Part shown: positions 5,899-22,314 of the stretch, one piece after another
Numbering within the stretch: position 1 is the stretch's first letter
Layout of the letters: the number at the start of each line of letters is the position of its first letter
Virus record (IMG/VR): IMGVR_UViG_3300006805_000187
Span: 1-22,314 of that record
Length of the DNA stretch: 22,314 nucleotides
Origin: a virus
Strand: one strand, 5' to 3'
Made by a program: the position numbers and the translations under genes
Notes under the pieces: model-generated
Seen by the model: only the letters and a program-made list of their open reading frames with translations
The model's database searches: none
What the model was told of the DNA's origin: nothing

Positions 5899-6621
5899 AT
5901 GAATACATCGACCATTCGGAGCATGCTCCAAAGACCGGTCGCGGTTCCGGTTATCCTGATCAAGGTGACCGGATCCGTGAAGCTAGCCGTCCTATGGAGC
6001 CAGTTACTTTATTGGACAGAGCGCACGAAAGATCCGCAGGGGTGGATCTACAAAACGCAAAAAGACCTGTACGACGAAACGGGAATGAGCCGAAAGGAAC
6101 AAGAGACAGCCCGTGACTTGGGTGCCAAGCTCGGTGTCCTCATGAGCGACGTGAGGGGGAAGCCGCCGACCGTCCACTACCGCGTAGACATGGATCGGAT
6201 GATCGAGCTCATCGAACGACACGAGAAAGAAAATCCGGCAGAGACAAAGGTCAAAGAGAGCAGGGGGGTGGCGGGCATTTCATACCTGACAACAATCTCG
6301 GACGAGGACGTGGCGGAGATCGCGGCAAAGTTCTCGGTCACGACCAAGTGCGTACGTGAACGGGCGCAAGACGTGATCGACTACTGCGAGGCCAAAGGCA
6401 AACGGTATTCGGACTATAAGGCCGCACTGCGGAACTTCCTCAAAATGCACATCCAACGACATCCGGACGCGGTCGTCCGGGCGGCAACACCGTCGGCAGT
6501 CGTACACCAACAGCAGGACATCCGACGGGACGACATGACGCCGGAGGATCGGGCGCGCGCGAATAAGAAACTAGACGAAATGCGGGCGGAGCTCGCACGT
6601 AAAAAAGCCATGAATGTATGA
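5899..6621 (+). CDS. Phage replication initiator-like protein (winged helix plus C-terminal helical domain)
   Basis: The product is 240 residues. The N-terminal half has the winged-helix layout of phage replication proteins: AVLWSQLLYWTER (about 30-42), WIYKTQKDLYDETGMSRKEQE (about 50-70) as the helix-turn-helix, then a wing ending VHYRVDMDRM. The C-terminal half contains VIDYCEAKGKRYSDYKAALRNFLK (about 155-178), matching the DnaD-like or lambda-O-like motif (x-Y-x2-KGK-x-Y-x-D-x2-AA-x-R-N-x-L). Such proteins bind the phage origin and recruit the helicase loader. It has its own promoter and follows the recombination operon. The C terminus overlaps the next small gene (ATGA at 6618-6621). Confidence 0.85.
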   Translation: MNTSTIRSMLQRPVAVPVILIKVTGSVKLAVLWSQLLYWTERTKDPQGWIYKTQKDLYDETGMSRKEQETARDLGAKLGVLMSDVRGKPPTVHYRVDMDRMIELIERHEKENPAETKVKESRGVAGISYLTTISDEDVAEIAAKFSVTTKCVRERAQDVIDYCEAKGKRYSDYKAALRNFLKMHIQRHPDAVVRAATPSAVVHQQQDIRRDDMTPEDRARANKKLDEMRAELARKKAMNV

Positions 6622-6797
6622 GCCAACGACAAACCAAACGCGAACGGAGATTCCTTCGCAAGCAATTCGAGGAACGGTATCAGGACACGGCGGACATGCT
6701 CGCAAAGAGCGACCACCAGTTCTTGAAGCCACGCCCGAAGTGGATACCGACATTCGTCTGGATCTGGGGGCTACGTTTATTCGTCCGCATCAAATGA
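6618..6797 (+). CDS. 59-residue single-pass membrane peptide
   Basis: ATG 6618 overlaps the upstream stop (ATGA) and its own TGA (6795-6797) overlaps the ATG at 6794, so it tiles exactly between two genes. The N-terminal 45 residues are strongly basic (MSQRQTKRERRFLRKQ...). The C terminus WIPTFVWIWGLRLFV (about 43-57) is hydrophobic and aromatic, long enough for a short transmembrane or interfacial helix. By the positive-inside rule the N terminus would face the cytoplasm. Being first in the glycan cassette, it could anchor the LicD-like or glycosyltransferase proteins at the membrane, which is inference. A different frame covering 6614-6794 is open but reads as noise. Confidence 0.75.
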   Translation: MSQRQTKRERRFLRKQFEERYQDTADMLAKSDHQFLKPRPKWIPTFVWIWGLRLFVRIK

Positions 6798-7372
6798 CTA
6801 TGGAACCGAAACCGACAAAAGAAGCGGCGGGCAAGGCGCTGATCGAGTTCGCAAAGATATTGGACGACATGGGGATCATCTTCGAGCTCGATGGAGGGAC
6901 ATTGCTCGGGATGTACCGCGATGGGGATTTCTGCGACGACGACCAGGACGACATCGACCTGACGACACTCAACGATCCCGGAGTCATGCACGAGATACTG
7001 GACAGAGCCGCGGCTCAAGGGTTCAAGGTATACAAGACATGGAGAGAGGAAGAAAAAAAGAGCGCGCAACTGTCCGTGAAAAAAGGGTGCGTCAAGATAG
7101 ACCTCATGTTCAAACGGAAGAAAGGGGGGCGCGTATGGTGGACGGTCTACCGTGGGGGCAAGGTCGTCTATAAATCCATCCGGGCCGATAGGTACAACGC
7201 ACGCCTGTACGAGACGCCGTACGGGGTCTACCTGATCCCAGGAGAGGCGCCGGACGGGACGGAAGCGTATCTCACGGAACGATACGGGGACTGGCGAACG
7301 CCGGTTCATCGTGACAATTACTCATGCTATTCAACAGACAAAGCGATCGTAAAATCCTATGAAGAAATATAA
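6794..7372 (+). CDS. LicD-like (fukutin-related) phosphotransferase
   Basis: The ATGA junction at 6794 defines a 192-residue product; an upstream extension in the same frame to 6614 overlaps the membrane peptide and lacks homology-like sequence. The nucleotidyltransferase-fold signature is clear: FELDGGTLLGMYRDGDF (30-46) and DDQDDIDL (49-56). It matches LicD/fukutin proteins, where G-G-T-L-L-G binds phosphate and the D-x-D pair binds metal. LicD proteins transfer phosphocholine, and relatives transfer other CDP-linked phospho-alcohols, onto glycans. Coupling to a cytidylyltransferase gene (14-base overlap) supports this. Which alcohol is used cannot be read from the sequence. The enzyme is shorter than typical LicD (about 270), so only the core is present. 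Confidence 0.88.
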   Translation: MTMEPKPTKEAAGKALIEFAKILDDMGIIFELDGGTLLGMYRDGDFCDDDQDDIDLTTLNDPGVMHEILDRAAAQGFKVYKTWREEEKKSAQLSVKKGCVKIDLMFKRKKGGRVWWTVYRGGKVVYKSIRADRYNARLYETPYGVYLIPGEAPDGTEAYLTERYGDWRTPVHRDNYSCYSTDKAIVKSYEEI

Positions 7373-7766
7373 AATCGGCATCACGTTCGGGGTCTTCGAT
7401 CTCTTGCATGAGGGACACCTGCGTCTCCTGAAACGGGCGAGCGAACGGTGCGAGCTTTTGATCGTGGCCGTTTCGGCAGATGGGTACGTACGGGATACGA
7501 AAGAGATCCGTCCGGCCATGCCGACGACGGCACGCAAGGCATGCGTCAAAGCCCTGCCGTTCGTGGATCGTGTGATCACGCAAGGTCACTCATTCACGAA
7601 GCAGGACGCAATCAAGCGGTACAAGCCGGACGTGATATTCGTCGGCGACGACTGGACACCTGCCACGTTCGGAGGTGAAGGGTTAGGGGTTCCGGTGGAA
7701 TACCTGGAACGCACGAAAGGTGTTTCCTCATCCAAGCTGCGGGAGATCATCGAAGGCAAGCTATGA
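7359..7766 (+). CDS. Cytidylyltransferase, TagD/glycerol-3-phosphate type
   Basis: The product is 135 residues, the usual size of TagD-like enzymes. The HxGH nucleotide-binding motif sits at H17-E18-G19-H20 within GVFDLLHEGHLRLL. Downstream come the conserved FVGDDW strand and RTKGVSSSKLRE (118-129), the counterpart of the family RT-x-GISTT-x-(I/L)R motif. Members couple CTP to glycerol-3-phosphate, phosphocholine or phosphoethanolamine, releasing diphosphate. Substrate cannot be set from the sequence alone. It overlaps the LicD-like gene by 14 bases and the glycosyltransferase by four (ATGA at 7763), so the three are almost certainly co-translated and likely form one pathway: activation here, transfer by the LicD-like enzyme. 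Confidence 0.93.
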   Translation: MKKYKIGITFGVFDLLHEGHLRLLKRASERCELLIVAVSADGYVRDTKEIRPAMPTTARKACVKALPFVDRVITQGHSFTKQDAIKRYKPDVIFVGDDWTPATFGGEGLGVPVEYLERTKGVSSSKLREIIEGKL

Positions 7767-8746
7767 AGAACGTCACCGCCGTCATCATTTCGTTCCTTCG
7801 GCAGGAATATACGACCGAGTGCGTGCGTTCACTTCGGGAAATGTACCCGGGGATCAAAATCCTCGTGGCAGAGAACGGGGAATACAACAGGAAGCTCGCG
7901 GATTTCATCCACGGACAGGAAGGGCAATACTTCCTCATGCCGTTCGACAGCGGCGTATGCTACGCACGCAACCGACTGATGGAGCTCGTACGGACGGATT
8001 TCGTACTGGTCGGGGACGACGACTTCTTCTACACCAAAGAGGCGAGCATCGACAAAATAAAAAAAGTCATGGAGCAGAAAGGAAACGAGGACATGGCACT
8101 GATGGGTGGTCGGGTTAGGGAGCAGGGAGTGCTGAAGAATTACCAGGGGGACATTGAGATCGGCGACGGGTTCTTCCATTACACGTCGTTGGATCTAGAC
8201 AGGGCGGACTACGTGCACGATCCGGAGACGGGGATCCAATACGAGAAGGTAGACATCACGTTCAATTTCTTTTTGGCCCGGACCGAACTCGTGCGGGATA
8301 TCCCGTGGGACGAAAAGATCAAAGTCGCGTATGAGCATTCGGACTGGTTCATCTCATTGAAGAAGGCAGGGCGGAAAGTCTTTTTTTGCCCACAGTCGAT
8401 CGTCGTCCACAAACCGGAGCACATACAGATCAAGGACATCGGACGGTACAAAGTCTATCGACACCGACGGAGCGATAAGGTTCATTTTTTTCGCAAGCAT
8501 GGGATCAAATACTCGATCAATTTCAACGGGCAAAAAACCACGTTCGACGATTCGCTCGAGACAGCGAAGAAGGTCAAACGGGAACGAGGATCCGCAACGA
8601 TCGAGAAGGCGTACACGATGGACAGATCATTCTCGTGGAACGGGACGCAATACAATTCCGGCGAGGTGATCTATACCGACCGACCGATCGACGGAATGAG
8701 GGCGGTCGGGGTTCGTGTGGATAACTTGCAAAAAGCCCGAAAATAG
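7763..8746 (+). CDS. GT-A family glycosyltransferase
   Basis: The product is 327 residues. The N-terminal 240 residues have the family 2 or B4GALNT-like GT-A fold: VIISFLRQEYTTECVRSL (8-25) as the nucleotide-binding start, FDSGVCYARNRLMELV (61-76), and the metal-binding VGDDDFFYT (83-91) with D85-D87. A later acidic segment, AYEHSDWFISLKKAG, is where the catalytic base is usually found. The C-terminal about 60 residues (FSWNGTQYNSGEVIYTDR...) form a small beta-rich extension not typical of the family. The role is sugar transfer from a nucleotide-sugar; donor and acceptor are unknown. It ends the cassette, followed by a promoter for a separate gene. Two T7 runs (around 8380 and 8485) lie in the gene. 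Confidence 0.9.
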   Translation: MKNVTAVIISFLRQEYTTECVRSLREMYPGIKILVAENGEYNRKLADFIHGQEGQYFLMPFDSGVCYARNRLMELVRTDFVLVGDDDFFYTKEASIDKIKKVMEQKGNEDMALMGGRVREQGVLKNYQGDIEIGDGFFHYTSLDLDRADYVHDPETGIQYEKVDITFNFFLARTELVRDIPWDEKIKVAYEHSDWFISLKKAGRKVFFCPQSIVVHKPEHIQIKDIGRYKVYRHRRSDKVHFFRKHGIKYSINFNGQKTTFDDSLETAKKVKRERGSATIEKAYTMDRSFSWNGTQYNSGEVIYTDRPIDGMRAVGVRVDNLQKARK

Positions 8747-12797: not shown

Positions 12798-12806
12798 TGC
12801 TACAAT
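12798..12806 (+). promoter_or_regulatory. Extended -10 promoter before the portal gene
   Basis: TGCTACAAT (12798-12806) is an extended -10. The 12-base GGTGCTACAATC occurs again at 15587-15598. ATG 12820 follows after 13 bases, giving a leader of roughly six bases and no Shine-Dalgarno sequence. No convincing -35 is seen, as often with extended -10 sites. Confidence 0.6.
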
Positions 12807-12819
12807 CCGATCAAACACT

Positions 12820-19156: not shown

Positions 19157-22027
19157 ATGGCTCGATTGTGGATGTCCGGCTTTGAAAAAGGAGTCGGAAG
19201 CATCAATGACCAGTTCGACATCAACACGTCCGGAAGCGGGACGTACTCTTCGTTATACGGCCGCTACGGCGGGATCGGGTGGAGTCCGGCACTGACATCG
19301 GGAACGCCAAACTACAACGGGGCGAACTTTGCGACGGGCAACGTGAACGGCCCGATCTTCATGCGGTTCTATTTCCGCCTCGTGACGACCCCGTCGGCCG
19401 ATAACACGATCTTCCGTTGCCAGAACTCATCGAACACGGGGATCGTATTCTTGAAACTCACGAGCACGGGAACGCTCCAGCTCTCGGACGAAGACGGGAA
19501 CATCGGATCGGCGTCGGGGGTGCTCGAAGCGAACCGCTGGTATCGGGTGGAAGTGAAGGTGGACGCGTCGGGGGCAGGTAGCACGGACATCGTGGAAGCG
19601 TGTCTTGATGGCAATGTTTTCGCGACGAGCGCAACGCGCAACCTCTCGACAGGAGTCCAGAAGTTCATCATCGGGACGAACATCGGATCGGAAGCGCAGA
19701 CACAAGGCGAATGGCATTTCGATGACCTTGCATGCAACGACTCGACCGGATCGCAACAGACGGGCTATCCGGGGACGGGAACGATCATCAACCTCGCGCC
19801 GAACGCGGCCGGTGACTCCAACCAATTCCTCAAATCCGGTGGCGGGGCGGGAGACGCGAACAACTACCAGGAAGTGGACGAGCTGAACCCGGACACGAAC
19901 ACGACGTACCTCAAATCGAATACGACGGGGCACATCGACTTCTACAACGTGGCGAACTCGGGGCTATCCTCGAACGTCAAGATCGTGGCCGTCGGGGTCA
20001 ACATGCGTTTCGCGGGAGATGGGGCGAGCGCGAACGGGACGATCCGGTGCAAACTGAAAAAGACGAGCGGCGGCACGATCGTGAACGGCGCGACGCAATC
20101 GCCGACATCCACCTCCTACCTCACGAACGCGGTCGCGATCCCGCGTTACCAGCAGATCATGCGGACAGTGGATCCGGACGGGACCGAATGGACGACAACG
20201 ACCGTCGACTCCATGCAGATCGGCGTCGAGTGTGTCGCGTCGAACACGAACGGGGTTCGTATCACGCAAATCTCGGCAGACGTCGAATACATCCCGGTCG
20301 ATCTCATTGCCACGATCACGGACAATTTCAATGACAACGTCCTGGACATCGGCAAGTGGTCGAATTGGGGAGGGGCGCAGGTCGCGGAAACAAGCGCACA
20401 GTTGCAATTCACCTCGACACTCGCGTCGGGGTATTACGGCGTCGACTCAAACGACGCCGTCATCACAAAAGTCTTTGACCTACGGTCGAGCTCCGTATCG
20501 GTGAAGGTCGCAAATGCGGGAAACCAATCCATCCCCAGCTTTGAGTTTTATTTCCAGCTCGACCAGGACGCCGACAAAAACGGCTTCGGCGAAGGGACAA
20601 ATACGCTCTGGTTCCGCATCACGGGCGGTACGATACAGGCGTTCAAGACCGTGGCGGGATCGGCAACGGGGCTCAACTCCGCAACGTACAACTCAACGAC
20701 GCACAAATATCTCCGCATCCGTGAAGCATCGGGAACGACCTACTGGGAGTATTCATCGAACGGCGTTTCATGGTCGACGCTCGACTCGCAGTCGAACCCG
20801 ATCACACCGGATCGGATGGTGCTCAAGTTGTTCATTGGTACGTGGCAGGTGGAAGGATCGACAACCGTCGCGGCAGTGGACGACGTGAACATCACGCCGA
20901 ACATCACGCCGACAGCGGTCACGAAGTCGCTCCGGTACGCGGTATCGCCAGACCATGCGATCACCAAATCGCTGAAATACACCGTCGAGAAAAAGGCATC
21001 GACGACCAAGAGCCTTCGCTATGCGGTATCTCCCGAAGGAGTGGTCACGAAGTCATTGCGTTACGCCGTAAGCCCCGAAGTGGGGGTGACAAAATCCCTG
21101 ACGTACCGCGTGAGTAGCGAGCACGACGTCACTAAGAGCCTAAAATATACGGTGCAAGCCGAGGCAGCCGTCACGAAAACACTCGTCTATACGGTCACGA
21201 CCGAGCAGTCGACGACTAAGAGCCTCGTCTATCGGGTCGGGATGGTGGGGACAGTCACCAAGTCCTTGCAGTACGAAGTCATCGGAACCCAATCCATCGC
21301 GATCACGCGCGGGATGACGTACGCGGTTGCAACCGACACGAACACACAAAAGAGCTTGCGCTACGCGGTCGCCGTCGAGGGGCCGATCACGAAATCCCTT
21401 TCGTACTCCGTGGCCGTGGAAACGCCGGCAACGAAACAACTCCGGTATTTCGTCCAGAGCGATAGCGTGCAAACCCGACAACTCAAGTACGACGTGGCGG
21501 TGGAAGGGGTGATCATGAAGTCCCTCGCCTACGGGCTGGCGACAGAGCACGCGATCCAAAAGGGATTGACCTACATCGTGATCATCCCGGGGCTCATACT
21601 CAAGACACTCAAATACGCTACTAGGGGCAAGAAATCGACCACCAAGGGGCTCATTTACCGGATCGGGACTCATGGGACGCTGACCAAGGGGCTGACGTAC
21701 CGGGTGCAGGGGGAGCAAACCAACAACCGAACCCTCAAATACGCGGTGCAGACGTCGACCGCGATCACCAAATCGCTGACCTATGTCCGGGAATTGGGGG
21801 GCACGTTGCAGAAATCCCTGACGTACCGGATCGACATCACGGTCGAGGTGGGACTACAGAAGTCCCTCCGCTATACGATCCGGCACTATCCCTACACGAA
21901 GAAAGGGTCACCGTACGAAAAGAAGGCGTCGCCGTTCACGAAAAAAGCCAGTCCCTACGTTTCACAGTCGCCAAGCCCGATCGGAAAAAAGGCCACGCCG
22001 TACAACCCACTCCCGCCACTCGTCTAA
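19157..22027 (+). CDS. Fibre-like virion protein with LamG-like domains and 23 tandem 14-residue repeats
   Basis: The product is 956 residues. Residues 1-about 195 form a concanavalin/LamG-like sheet domain (MARLWMSGFEKG..., FMRFYFRLVTTP, RWYRVEVKVDAS, EWHFDDLACND). Residues about 209-380 are a beta module common in phage virion proteins (AGDSNQFLKSGG..NNYQEVDELNPD). Residues about 387-578 are a second LamG-like domain (DNFNDNVLDIGKWSNWGG...YLRIREASGTTYWEYSSNGVSW). Residues 587-912 hold 23 units, mostly 14 residues, with core TKSLxYxV. Residues 912-956 carry a Lys-rich tail of P-(Y/F)-x-KK-x-S units. LamG-like domains bind glycans, so host recognition is likely. The gene lies between head genes and a connector, an unusual place for a fibre. 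Confidence 0.85.
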   Translation: MARLWMSGFEKGVGSINDQFDINTSGSGTYSSLYGRYGGIGWSPALTSGTPNYNGANFATGNVNGPIFMRFYFRLVTTPSADNTIFRCQNSSNTGIVFLKLTSTGTLQLSDEDGNIGSASGVLEANRWYRVEVKVDASGAGSTDIVEACLDGNVFATSATRNLSTGVQKFIIGTNIGSEAQTQGEWHFDDLACNDSTGSQQTGYPGTGTIINLAPNAAGDSNQFLKSGGGAGDANNYQEVDELNPDTNTTYLKSNTTGHIDFYNVANSGLSSNVKIVAVGVNMRFAGDGASANGTIRCKLKKTSGGTIVNGATQSPTSTSYLTNAVAIPRYQQIMRTVDPDGTEWTTTTVDSMQIGVECVASNTNGVRITQISADVEYIPVDLIATITDNFNDNVLDIGKWSNWGGAQVAETSAQLQFTSTLASGYYGVDSNDAVITKVFDLRSSSVSVKVANAGNQSIPSFEFYFQLDQDADKNGFGEGTNTLWFRITGGTIQAFKTVAGSATGLNSATYNSTTHKYLRIREASGTTYWEYSSNGVSWSTLDSQSNPITPDRMVLKLFIGTWQVEGSTTVAAVDDVNITPNITPTAVTKSLRYAVSPDHAITKSLKYTVEKKASTTKSLRYAVSPEGVVTKSLRYAVSPEVGVTKSLTYRVSSEHDVTKSLKYTVQAEAAVTKTLVYTVTTEQSTTKSLVYRVGMVGTVTKSLQYEVIGTQSIAITRGMTYAVATDTNTQKSLRYAVAVEGPITKSLSYSVAVETPATKQLRYFVQSDSVQTRQLKYDVAVEGVIMKSLAYGLATEHAIQKGLTYIVIIPGLILKTLKYATRGKKSTTKGLIYRIGTHGTLTKGLTYRVQGEQTNNRTLKYAVQTSTAITKSLTYVRELGGTLQKSLTYRIDITVEVGLQKSLRYTIRHYPYTKKGSPYEKKASPFTKKASPYVSQSPSPIGKKATPYNPLPPLV
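20915..21892 (+). repeat. 23 tandem 42-base protein-coding repeats (14-residue units)
   Basis: Units align as x-[VIT]-T-K-S-L-[RKT]-Y-x-V-x-x-E-x, for example AVTKSLRYAVSPDH, AITKSLKYTVEKKA and DVTKSLKYTVQAEA. Twenty-one units are 14 residues and two (the ninth and the twenty-second) are 16. DNA copies are well diverged although the protein core (Lys, Leu, Tyr) is kept, which indicates age and selection and not a recent expansion. The alternating polar/hydrophobic core suggests one or two short beta strands per unit. Confidence 0.9.
21890..22024 (+). repeat. Lys-rich heptad repeats at the fibre C terminus
   Basis: From residue 912 the protein reads PYTKKGS, PYEKKAS, PFTKKAS, then a variant, then IGKKATPY. 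The seven-residue unit P-(Y/F)-x-K-K-(A/G)-S is strongly basic and distinct from the 14-residue repeats before it. Confidence 0.75.
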
Positions 22028-22033
22028 AACCGC

Positions 22034-22039
22034 TATAAT
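22034..22039 (+). promoter_or_regulatory. TATAAT -10 box before the connector gene
   Basis: A perfect TATAAT lies nine bases ahead of ATG 22049, in the context AATCAAAACACTATG. No -35 hexamer is clear. As at 8764 and 15002, the leader would be two to three bases. Confidence 0.55.
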
Positions 22040-22048
22040 CAAAACACT

Positions 22049-22314
22049 ATGGCCGAGATCATCGTCACAAAGTCACTCAAGTACTTCATGCGGCCGGAAG
22101 GGCCGAAGGGGTATACGACGCGCGAACGGATCGAGAATTACCTCCTGATCACGATCGACCCGTCGTTTTACACGCAGGTCAACGACTGGATCATGGAAGT
22201 CGAGGAATACATCGACCACAAGACCGGCCGCAACTTCGTGGCATCCGGCCCCGAGGAACGCGTCTTCGACGGGGACGGTTCGCACAAGCTGATCATCGAC
22301 GACGCAGCCGAGAT
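22049..22314 (+). CDS. Head-tail connector-like protein (partial, runs off the window)
   Basis: The first 88 residues are present and the frame stays open to the window end. RERIENYLLITIDPSFYTQVNDWIMEVEEYIDHKTGRNF (about 25-63) matches the N-terminal helices of HK97 gp6-like connectors (x-YL-x-I...V-x2-x-I-x2-x2-x-I...TGR-x-F), which sit below the portal. The first 18 residues, AEIIVTKSLKYFMRPEG, are not part of that fold and match the 14-residue repeat of the upstream fibre protein. The promoter nine bases upstream supports this start over Met14. Confidence 0.8.
   Translation, partial: MAEIIVTKSLKYFMRPEGPKGYTTRERIENYLLITIDPSFYTQVNDWIMEVEEYIDHKTGRNFVASGPEERVFDGDGSHKLIIDDAAE

Follow-up and report, generated by a model that had tools for sequence, protein, structure and literature searches.

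The window analyzed here, a virus record of 22,314 bases, carries a capsid gene, the gene of a long repeat fibre and a head-tail adaptor gene in that order, and ends inside the adaptor; in relatives, further conserved neck-type genes follow. A single unit of the kind repeated in the fibre stands near the N terminus of the adaptor (Table 1). This raises the question of whether the stray unit is real, how it could have reached a second virion protein, and whether it has a part in holding the fibre.

Table 1. Coordinates of the features discussed, in the window unless another contig is named.
Feature	Position	Strand	Basis
Repeat fibre ORF, 956 aa, stop codon included in the coordinates	19157..22027	+	N-terminal phrog_14065 match
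Array of the fibre repeat, 23 units each 14 residues long, with the consensus xx[IV]TKSLxYx[VI]xxx	20912..21889	+	Unit count
Fibre C-terminal tail PYTKKGSPYEKKASPFTKKASPY..., SPYxKK-type	21890..22024	+	Common to fibres with unrelated repeats
TATAAT box, separated from ATG 22049 by 9 nt	22034..22039	+	Equivalent -10-like box in most relatives
Head-tail adaptor ORF of 88 codons, cut off by the contig end	22049..22312	+	37-64% identity to 17 adaptors
Single fibre-type unit IIVTKSLKYFMRPE, adaptor residues 4-17	22058..22099	+	PSSM scores, chance calculation
Alternative start codon Met14, disfavoured	22088..22090	+	48 nt from the TATAAT box
Conserved adaptor region PKGYTTRERIENYLLITIDPSF...	22103..22312	+	Alignment; AlphaFold2 pLDDT about 90-95 for residues 21-50
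L276 (genome G015, contig C12): SERxIELxGK repeat protein with PYSKK tail, encoded immediately upstream of an adaptor homologue	7004-8737	minus	

The fibre array occupies residues 586-911 and consists of K[STGQ]LxY-type units spaced by 14 residues, except for two spacings of 16. A sequence-only reading of this locus had described 23 fibre units that are diverged in DNA and keep Lys, Leu and Tyr. Our count is the same, the mean pairwise identity among the units is 46% at the nucleotide and 37% at the amino acid level, and the three residues are conserved in 95%, 94% and 98%, respectively, of 974 distinct units of the wider family. Upstream of the array, residues 1-384 match phrog_14065 (E 1e-61, profile search), and residues 1-581 are 28.5% identical to gp13 of Streptomyces phage Hiyaa, annotated as a 'minor tail protein'. 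For the repeat in the window fibre, neither Pfam nor PHROGs gave a family, and the repeat region matched no record at E 1e-5 in the annotated phage collection; a Pfam TIP49_C hit, which falls within the repeats and below its own cut-off, was discarded as spurious. When eight units were modelled as a monomer with AlphaFold2, each yielded one strand of 9-11 residues at a mean pLDDT of 45, which made the model too uncertain for a fold search. A strand per unit, in a monomer model of that confidence, can be set beside the trimeric triple beta-spiral shafts with their strand-turn repeat of ~15 residues.

The repeat extends well beyond this phage. A two-unit DNA pattern led to 70 viral contigs, with more from further scans, and the matches listed from bacterial genomes failed at the unit filter. 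Filtering left 52 distinct repeat ORFs of 8-72 units each, with a spacing of almost always 14 or 15 residues. To judge from these sequences, the TKSLxY repeat is a widespread and previously undescribed phage fibre module. At siphovirus-like loci, the fibre gene lies directly upstream of the adaptor gene, and further small conserved neck-type genes come after. A fibre of L007 matches one metagenomic podovirus record, chiefly via its N-terminal domain. Some phages have paired, adjacent repeat fibre ORFs (L066 4527-9180, L007 522-5432, L009 136-6911, and L035), and the pairs in L007 and L009 are placed elsewhere than directly before an adaptor. At the podovirus-like loci L013, L014, L017, L022, L045, L056 and L068, no adaptor follows the repeat ORF; a conserved protein of ~450 aa with an SFRGGKSDY-type motif is encoded 3′ of it, directly or one gene on, and the L013 copy of this protein had no PHROG match.

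An alignment-based search for relatives of the adaptor found 40. The window protein was aligned with 17 of these at the identities given in Table 1, and none closer than 64% was found among the relatives. All but one of the 18 members of this alignment matched the head-tail adaptor family phrog_442 (E up to 1, best 4.6e-21); the incomplete 88-aa ORF of the window itself had no PHROG match. Profile matches to the PDB were weak ('head completion protein', E 0.07), and Foldseek with the 88-aa model gave no useful match. AlphaFold2 placed the N-terminal tail as a coil outside the well-modelled fold, at low confidence (pLDDT <50 for most of residues 1-10). The earlier description of the connector as unrelated to the fibre thus stands, since full-length relatives match head-tail adaptor families, phrog_442 best. 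The adaptor ORF is in the reading frame of the fibre, with the fibre stop codon alone between them, and 10 of 30 relatives have this frame in common, as expected by chance.

To judge the stray unit, we scored it with two PSSMs. With the matrix made from the window units, it reached 22.3 bits, next to 23.7-38.4 bits for the true units and 9.8 bits for the best of 5,931 sequence windows in the other genes. With the family matrix from the 974 distinct units, it scored 16.2 bits, which ranks at the 14th percentile of true units, and the highest control score was 9.2 bits (126,633 sequence windows from 585 proteins). The chance of such a match is 2.4e-7 per position, so that ~0.0015 matches are expected in the rest of the protein encoded by this phage and 2e-5 in the adaptor ORF. 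All six residues of the core, TKSLKY, are intact. The unit on the adaptor N terminus is real, and the sequence-only reading was right to place one fibre unit there. At the nucleotide level it is 33-57% identical to the fibre units, as these are among themselves, and hence was not copied recently from any unit now in the fibre; it uses the same codon as the closest fibre unit at five of the eight residues that they share. Descent from a terminal fibre unit was considered, as the FMR of the adaptor unit resembles the VMR/VIR of the terminal units.

The relatives show how exceptional this tail is. Before the first Y[TSCI] motif, 30 distinct adaptors encoded behind a repeat fibre have 1-8 residues and the window protein has 21, and in every other protein of the alignment with 17 adaptors KGYTT is preceded by a few residues at most. 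The excess fits one inserted unit (7 + 14 = 21). No fibre unit was present in the adaptors of the 30 distinct phages in which the same repeat fibre is encoded immediately upstream. This absence, which the sequence-only reading had named as an outcome that would refute it, makes the unit private to one phage, and it is therefore not a general docking or strand-swap module. The other proposal, a mobile tag added to several virion proteins, is not supported by the 585 other locus proteins, all of which scored at or below 9.2 bits; clear isolated units elsewhere belonged to a short sibling repeat ORF or to a cut-off fibre end. Two candidates were set aside. An apparent tail on the L210 adaptor arose where a tblastn match ran past the adaptor start into the upstream fibre end, and this adaptor starts MIQKGYTT, without a tail. 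The large protein encoded at L038 7699-10288 has a weakly unit-like N terminus, MPVIQKTSTYDVKKN, whose 8.2 bits are at chance level for the number of windows searched.

Against this background, it is very improbable that an unrelated N-terminal extension came to resemble the unit by chance. Such a reading could appeal to the fact that the case is one sequence only, with eight of 14 residues in common with its best-matching unit, but the expected number of matches is far below one, the nearest control is well below the score of the adaptor unit, and the excess length is about that of one repeat. We consider an assembly artefact, in which a piece of fibre sequence was fused to the adaptor gene, extremely improbable. 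The region is repetitive and the junction is seen in one contig only, a second copy (L002) ending at window position 21646; against this, no fibre unit matches the adaptor unit above 57% at the nucleotide level, so there is no shared sequence to mislead an assembler, and neither the reading frame nor the promoter-like box is disrupted. The unit could also be an untranslated intergenic remnant if the true start were Met14, as in the short relatives, an objection that had been raised from the outset and that we consider unlikely to hold. The product, MRPEGPKGYTT..., would have eight residues before the first Tyr, within the family range. However, a -10-like box (≤1 mismatch) lies 4-20 nt upstream of the ATG in 23 of 35 adaptor relatives, compared with 13% at random positions, and mostly at 6-18 nt; the TATAAT box of the window fits ATG 22049 and is too distant from ATG 22088 (48 nt). 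Furthermore, the A/C-rich context before ATG 22049 resembles that of the portal and decoration gene starts and the context before 22088 is unlike other starts, the supposed remnant is in frame and without a stop codon, and decay of the TKSLKY core would be expected if the remnant were untranslated. Translation from ATG 22049 is therefore favoured on these sequence features.

With regard to these boxes, TGn-TATAAT-like sequences stand only a few bases upstream of the adaptor ATG, both in the window (22034-22048) and in most relatives within L195-L234, and a TG one base ahead of the box is frequent in relatives. A further sequence, TGCTACAAT, is found 13 nt before the portal ATG (window 12798-12819). 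By eye, no clear Shine-Dalgarno sequences were seen there. These features may reflect transcripts that are leaderless or nearly so.

What the unit does on the adaptor is a separate matter. From the comparisons above, we infer a long virion fibre in which each 14-residue unit forms one beta-strand of 9-11 residues, as in the low-confidence model. Its N-terminal end would carry globular domains, and its SPYxKK-type tail is the probable anchor to the virion near the neck. The insertion of a single such unit between the start codon of the adaptor and its first conserved residues would be unique to this phage, and most likely came about when the start of the neighbouring gene underwent illegitimate recombination with a fibre array of this or another phage. 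The unit would then be translated as a flexible N-terminal tail that is most likely tolerated, or at most serves as an auxiliary strand able to pair with the fibre; it would not be the conserved way of holding such fibres. A recombination-born, translated and near-neutral tail is the reading that we cautiously favour. What speaks against near-neutrality is that the core is intact although, at the nucleotide level, the unit has diverged from all those of the phage's own fibre, which could reflect selection or import from an unsampled array.

Adaptor rings are multimeric. A ring of such adaptors could display docking strands for the fibre, with each tail strand completing or capping the fibre sheet. 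We regard private docking of this kind as unlikely, though it ranks next after the near-neutral tail and ahead of a Met14 start. The intact core and the multimeric ring count for it, as do natural fibre-adaptor fusions, which show that both parts can sit together, and the prediction, at low confidence, of one strand per unit; against it, the unit is absent from every compared relative with the same fibre, and the combination of exchangeable repeats and a kept C-terminal tail makes that tail the better anchor candidate. The more specific proposal, that fibre-type beta-strands on the adaptor ring pair with the array, so that a neck fibre docks by strand exchange in this phage only, appears decidedly unlikely. 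In itself, the stray unit is a curiosity; it provides an instance from nature in which a repeat unit has crossed the boundary between two virion-protein genes.

The anchor is better sought in the tail of the fibre. Fibres at the same locus in L216, L217, L230 and L276 have unrelated repeats and yet PY/KK-type tails; the repeat of the L276 fibre-like protein, SERxIELxGK, is also 14 residues long. Because fibres differ in repeat type yet retain the C-terminal tail, the SPYxKK-type tail is a better candidate for the anchor than the repeat. Of the earlier proposal that the unit binds the fibre to the neck, two parts survive: a probably translated tail of fibre origin on this one adaptor and, given the gene order and the existence of natural fibre-adaptor fusions, a plausible neck position of the fibre. 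The unit as a general means of binding is not borne out. Taken together, the comparison reveals a large undescribed class of fibres of uncultivated phages, encoded mostly directly before a head-tail adaptor, with an exchangeable repeat type, a kept short SPYxKK-type tail and related fibres that are sometimes fused to an adaptor. This class provides a testable idea of where such fibres are positioned and how they are held.

The adaptor relatives also bear on the host. One strong adaptor match (E 2.9e-58), with the PYSKK-tailed repeat protein of L276 encoded upstream of it, comes from a genome that belongs to the same phylum as a Levyibacteriota genome. The match is a hint that Patescibacteria may be hosts in the wider phage group, and for the phage of the window it is only a lead. 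Elsewhere in the window (6614-8746), three adjacent genes resemble, by eye, those of a LicD-like protein, a cytidylyltransferase and a glycosyltransferase, and surface-sugar modification by the phage is possible.

Among known systems, the lactococcal neck passage structure (collar-whisker) has neck fibres with carbohydrate-binding modules, and that of TP901-1 is non-essential, co-expressed with the capsid and proposed to attach at the portal (PMC6669499). It is a functional parallel, with coiled-coil shafts and N-terminal anchoring. Adaptors of phrog_442, the family matched by the relatives of the window adaptor, carry no repeat-unit tail in any of the 30 compared behind repeat fibres. Another comparison is phage Hiyaa, whose gp13 (phrog_14065) has the same N-terminal region as the window fibre, likewise precedes the head-to-tail adaptor, gp14, in the same place after the major capsid gene, and bears long C-terminal tandem repeats. 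In contrast to the window fibre, its repeat motif is unlike TKSLxY and its tail is GP-rich, and the Hiyaa adaptor has ~90 residues before the adaptor domain that are Ig-like by eye and contain no repeat unit. The natural fusions are found in two podovirus records. In MW202473 (L235, 6004-8265), a single ORF joins an N-terminal beta-type domain and many beta-type repeats to a C-terminal tail-tubular-protein-A domain (phrog_394, E 1.2e-35); MW202478 can be aligned over 89% of this ORF. The N-terminal part of these 'tail tubular protein A' fusions is 31% identical over 157 residues to a TKSLxY fibre of L007; they differ in longer, different repeats, in a podovirus-type adaptor domain, and in being full fusions without a separate adaptor gene. 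Strand-exchange docking, if true, would place the window between separate fibre and adaptor genes and these full fusions.
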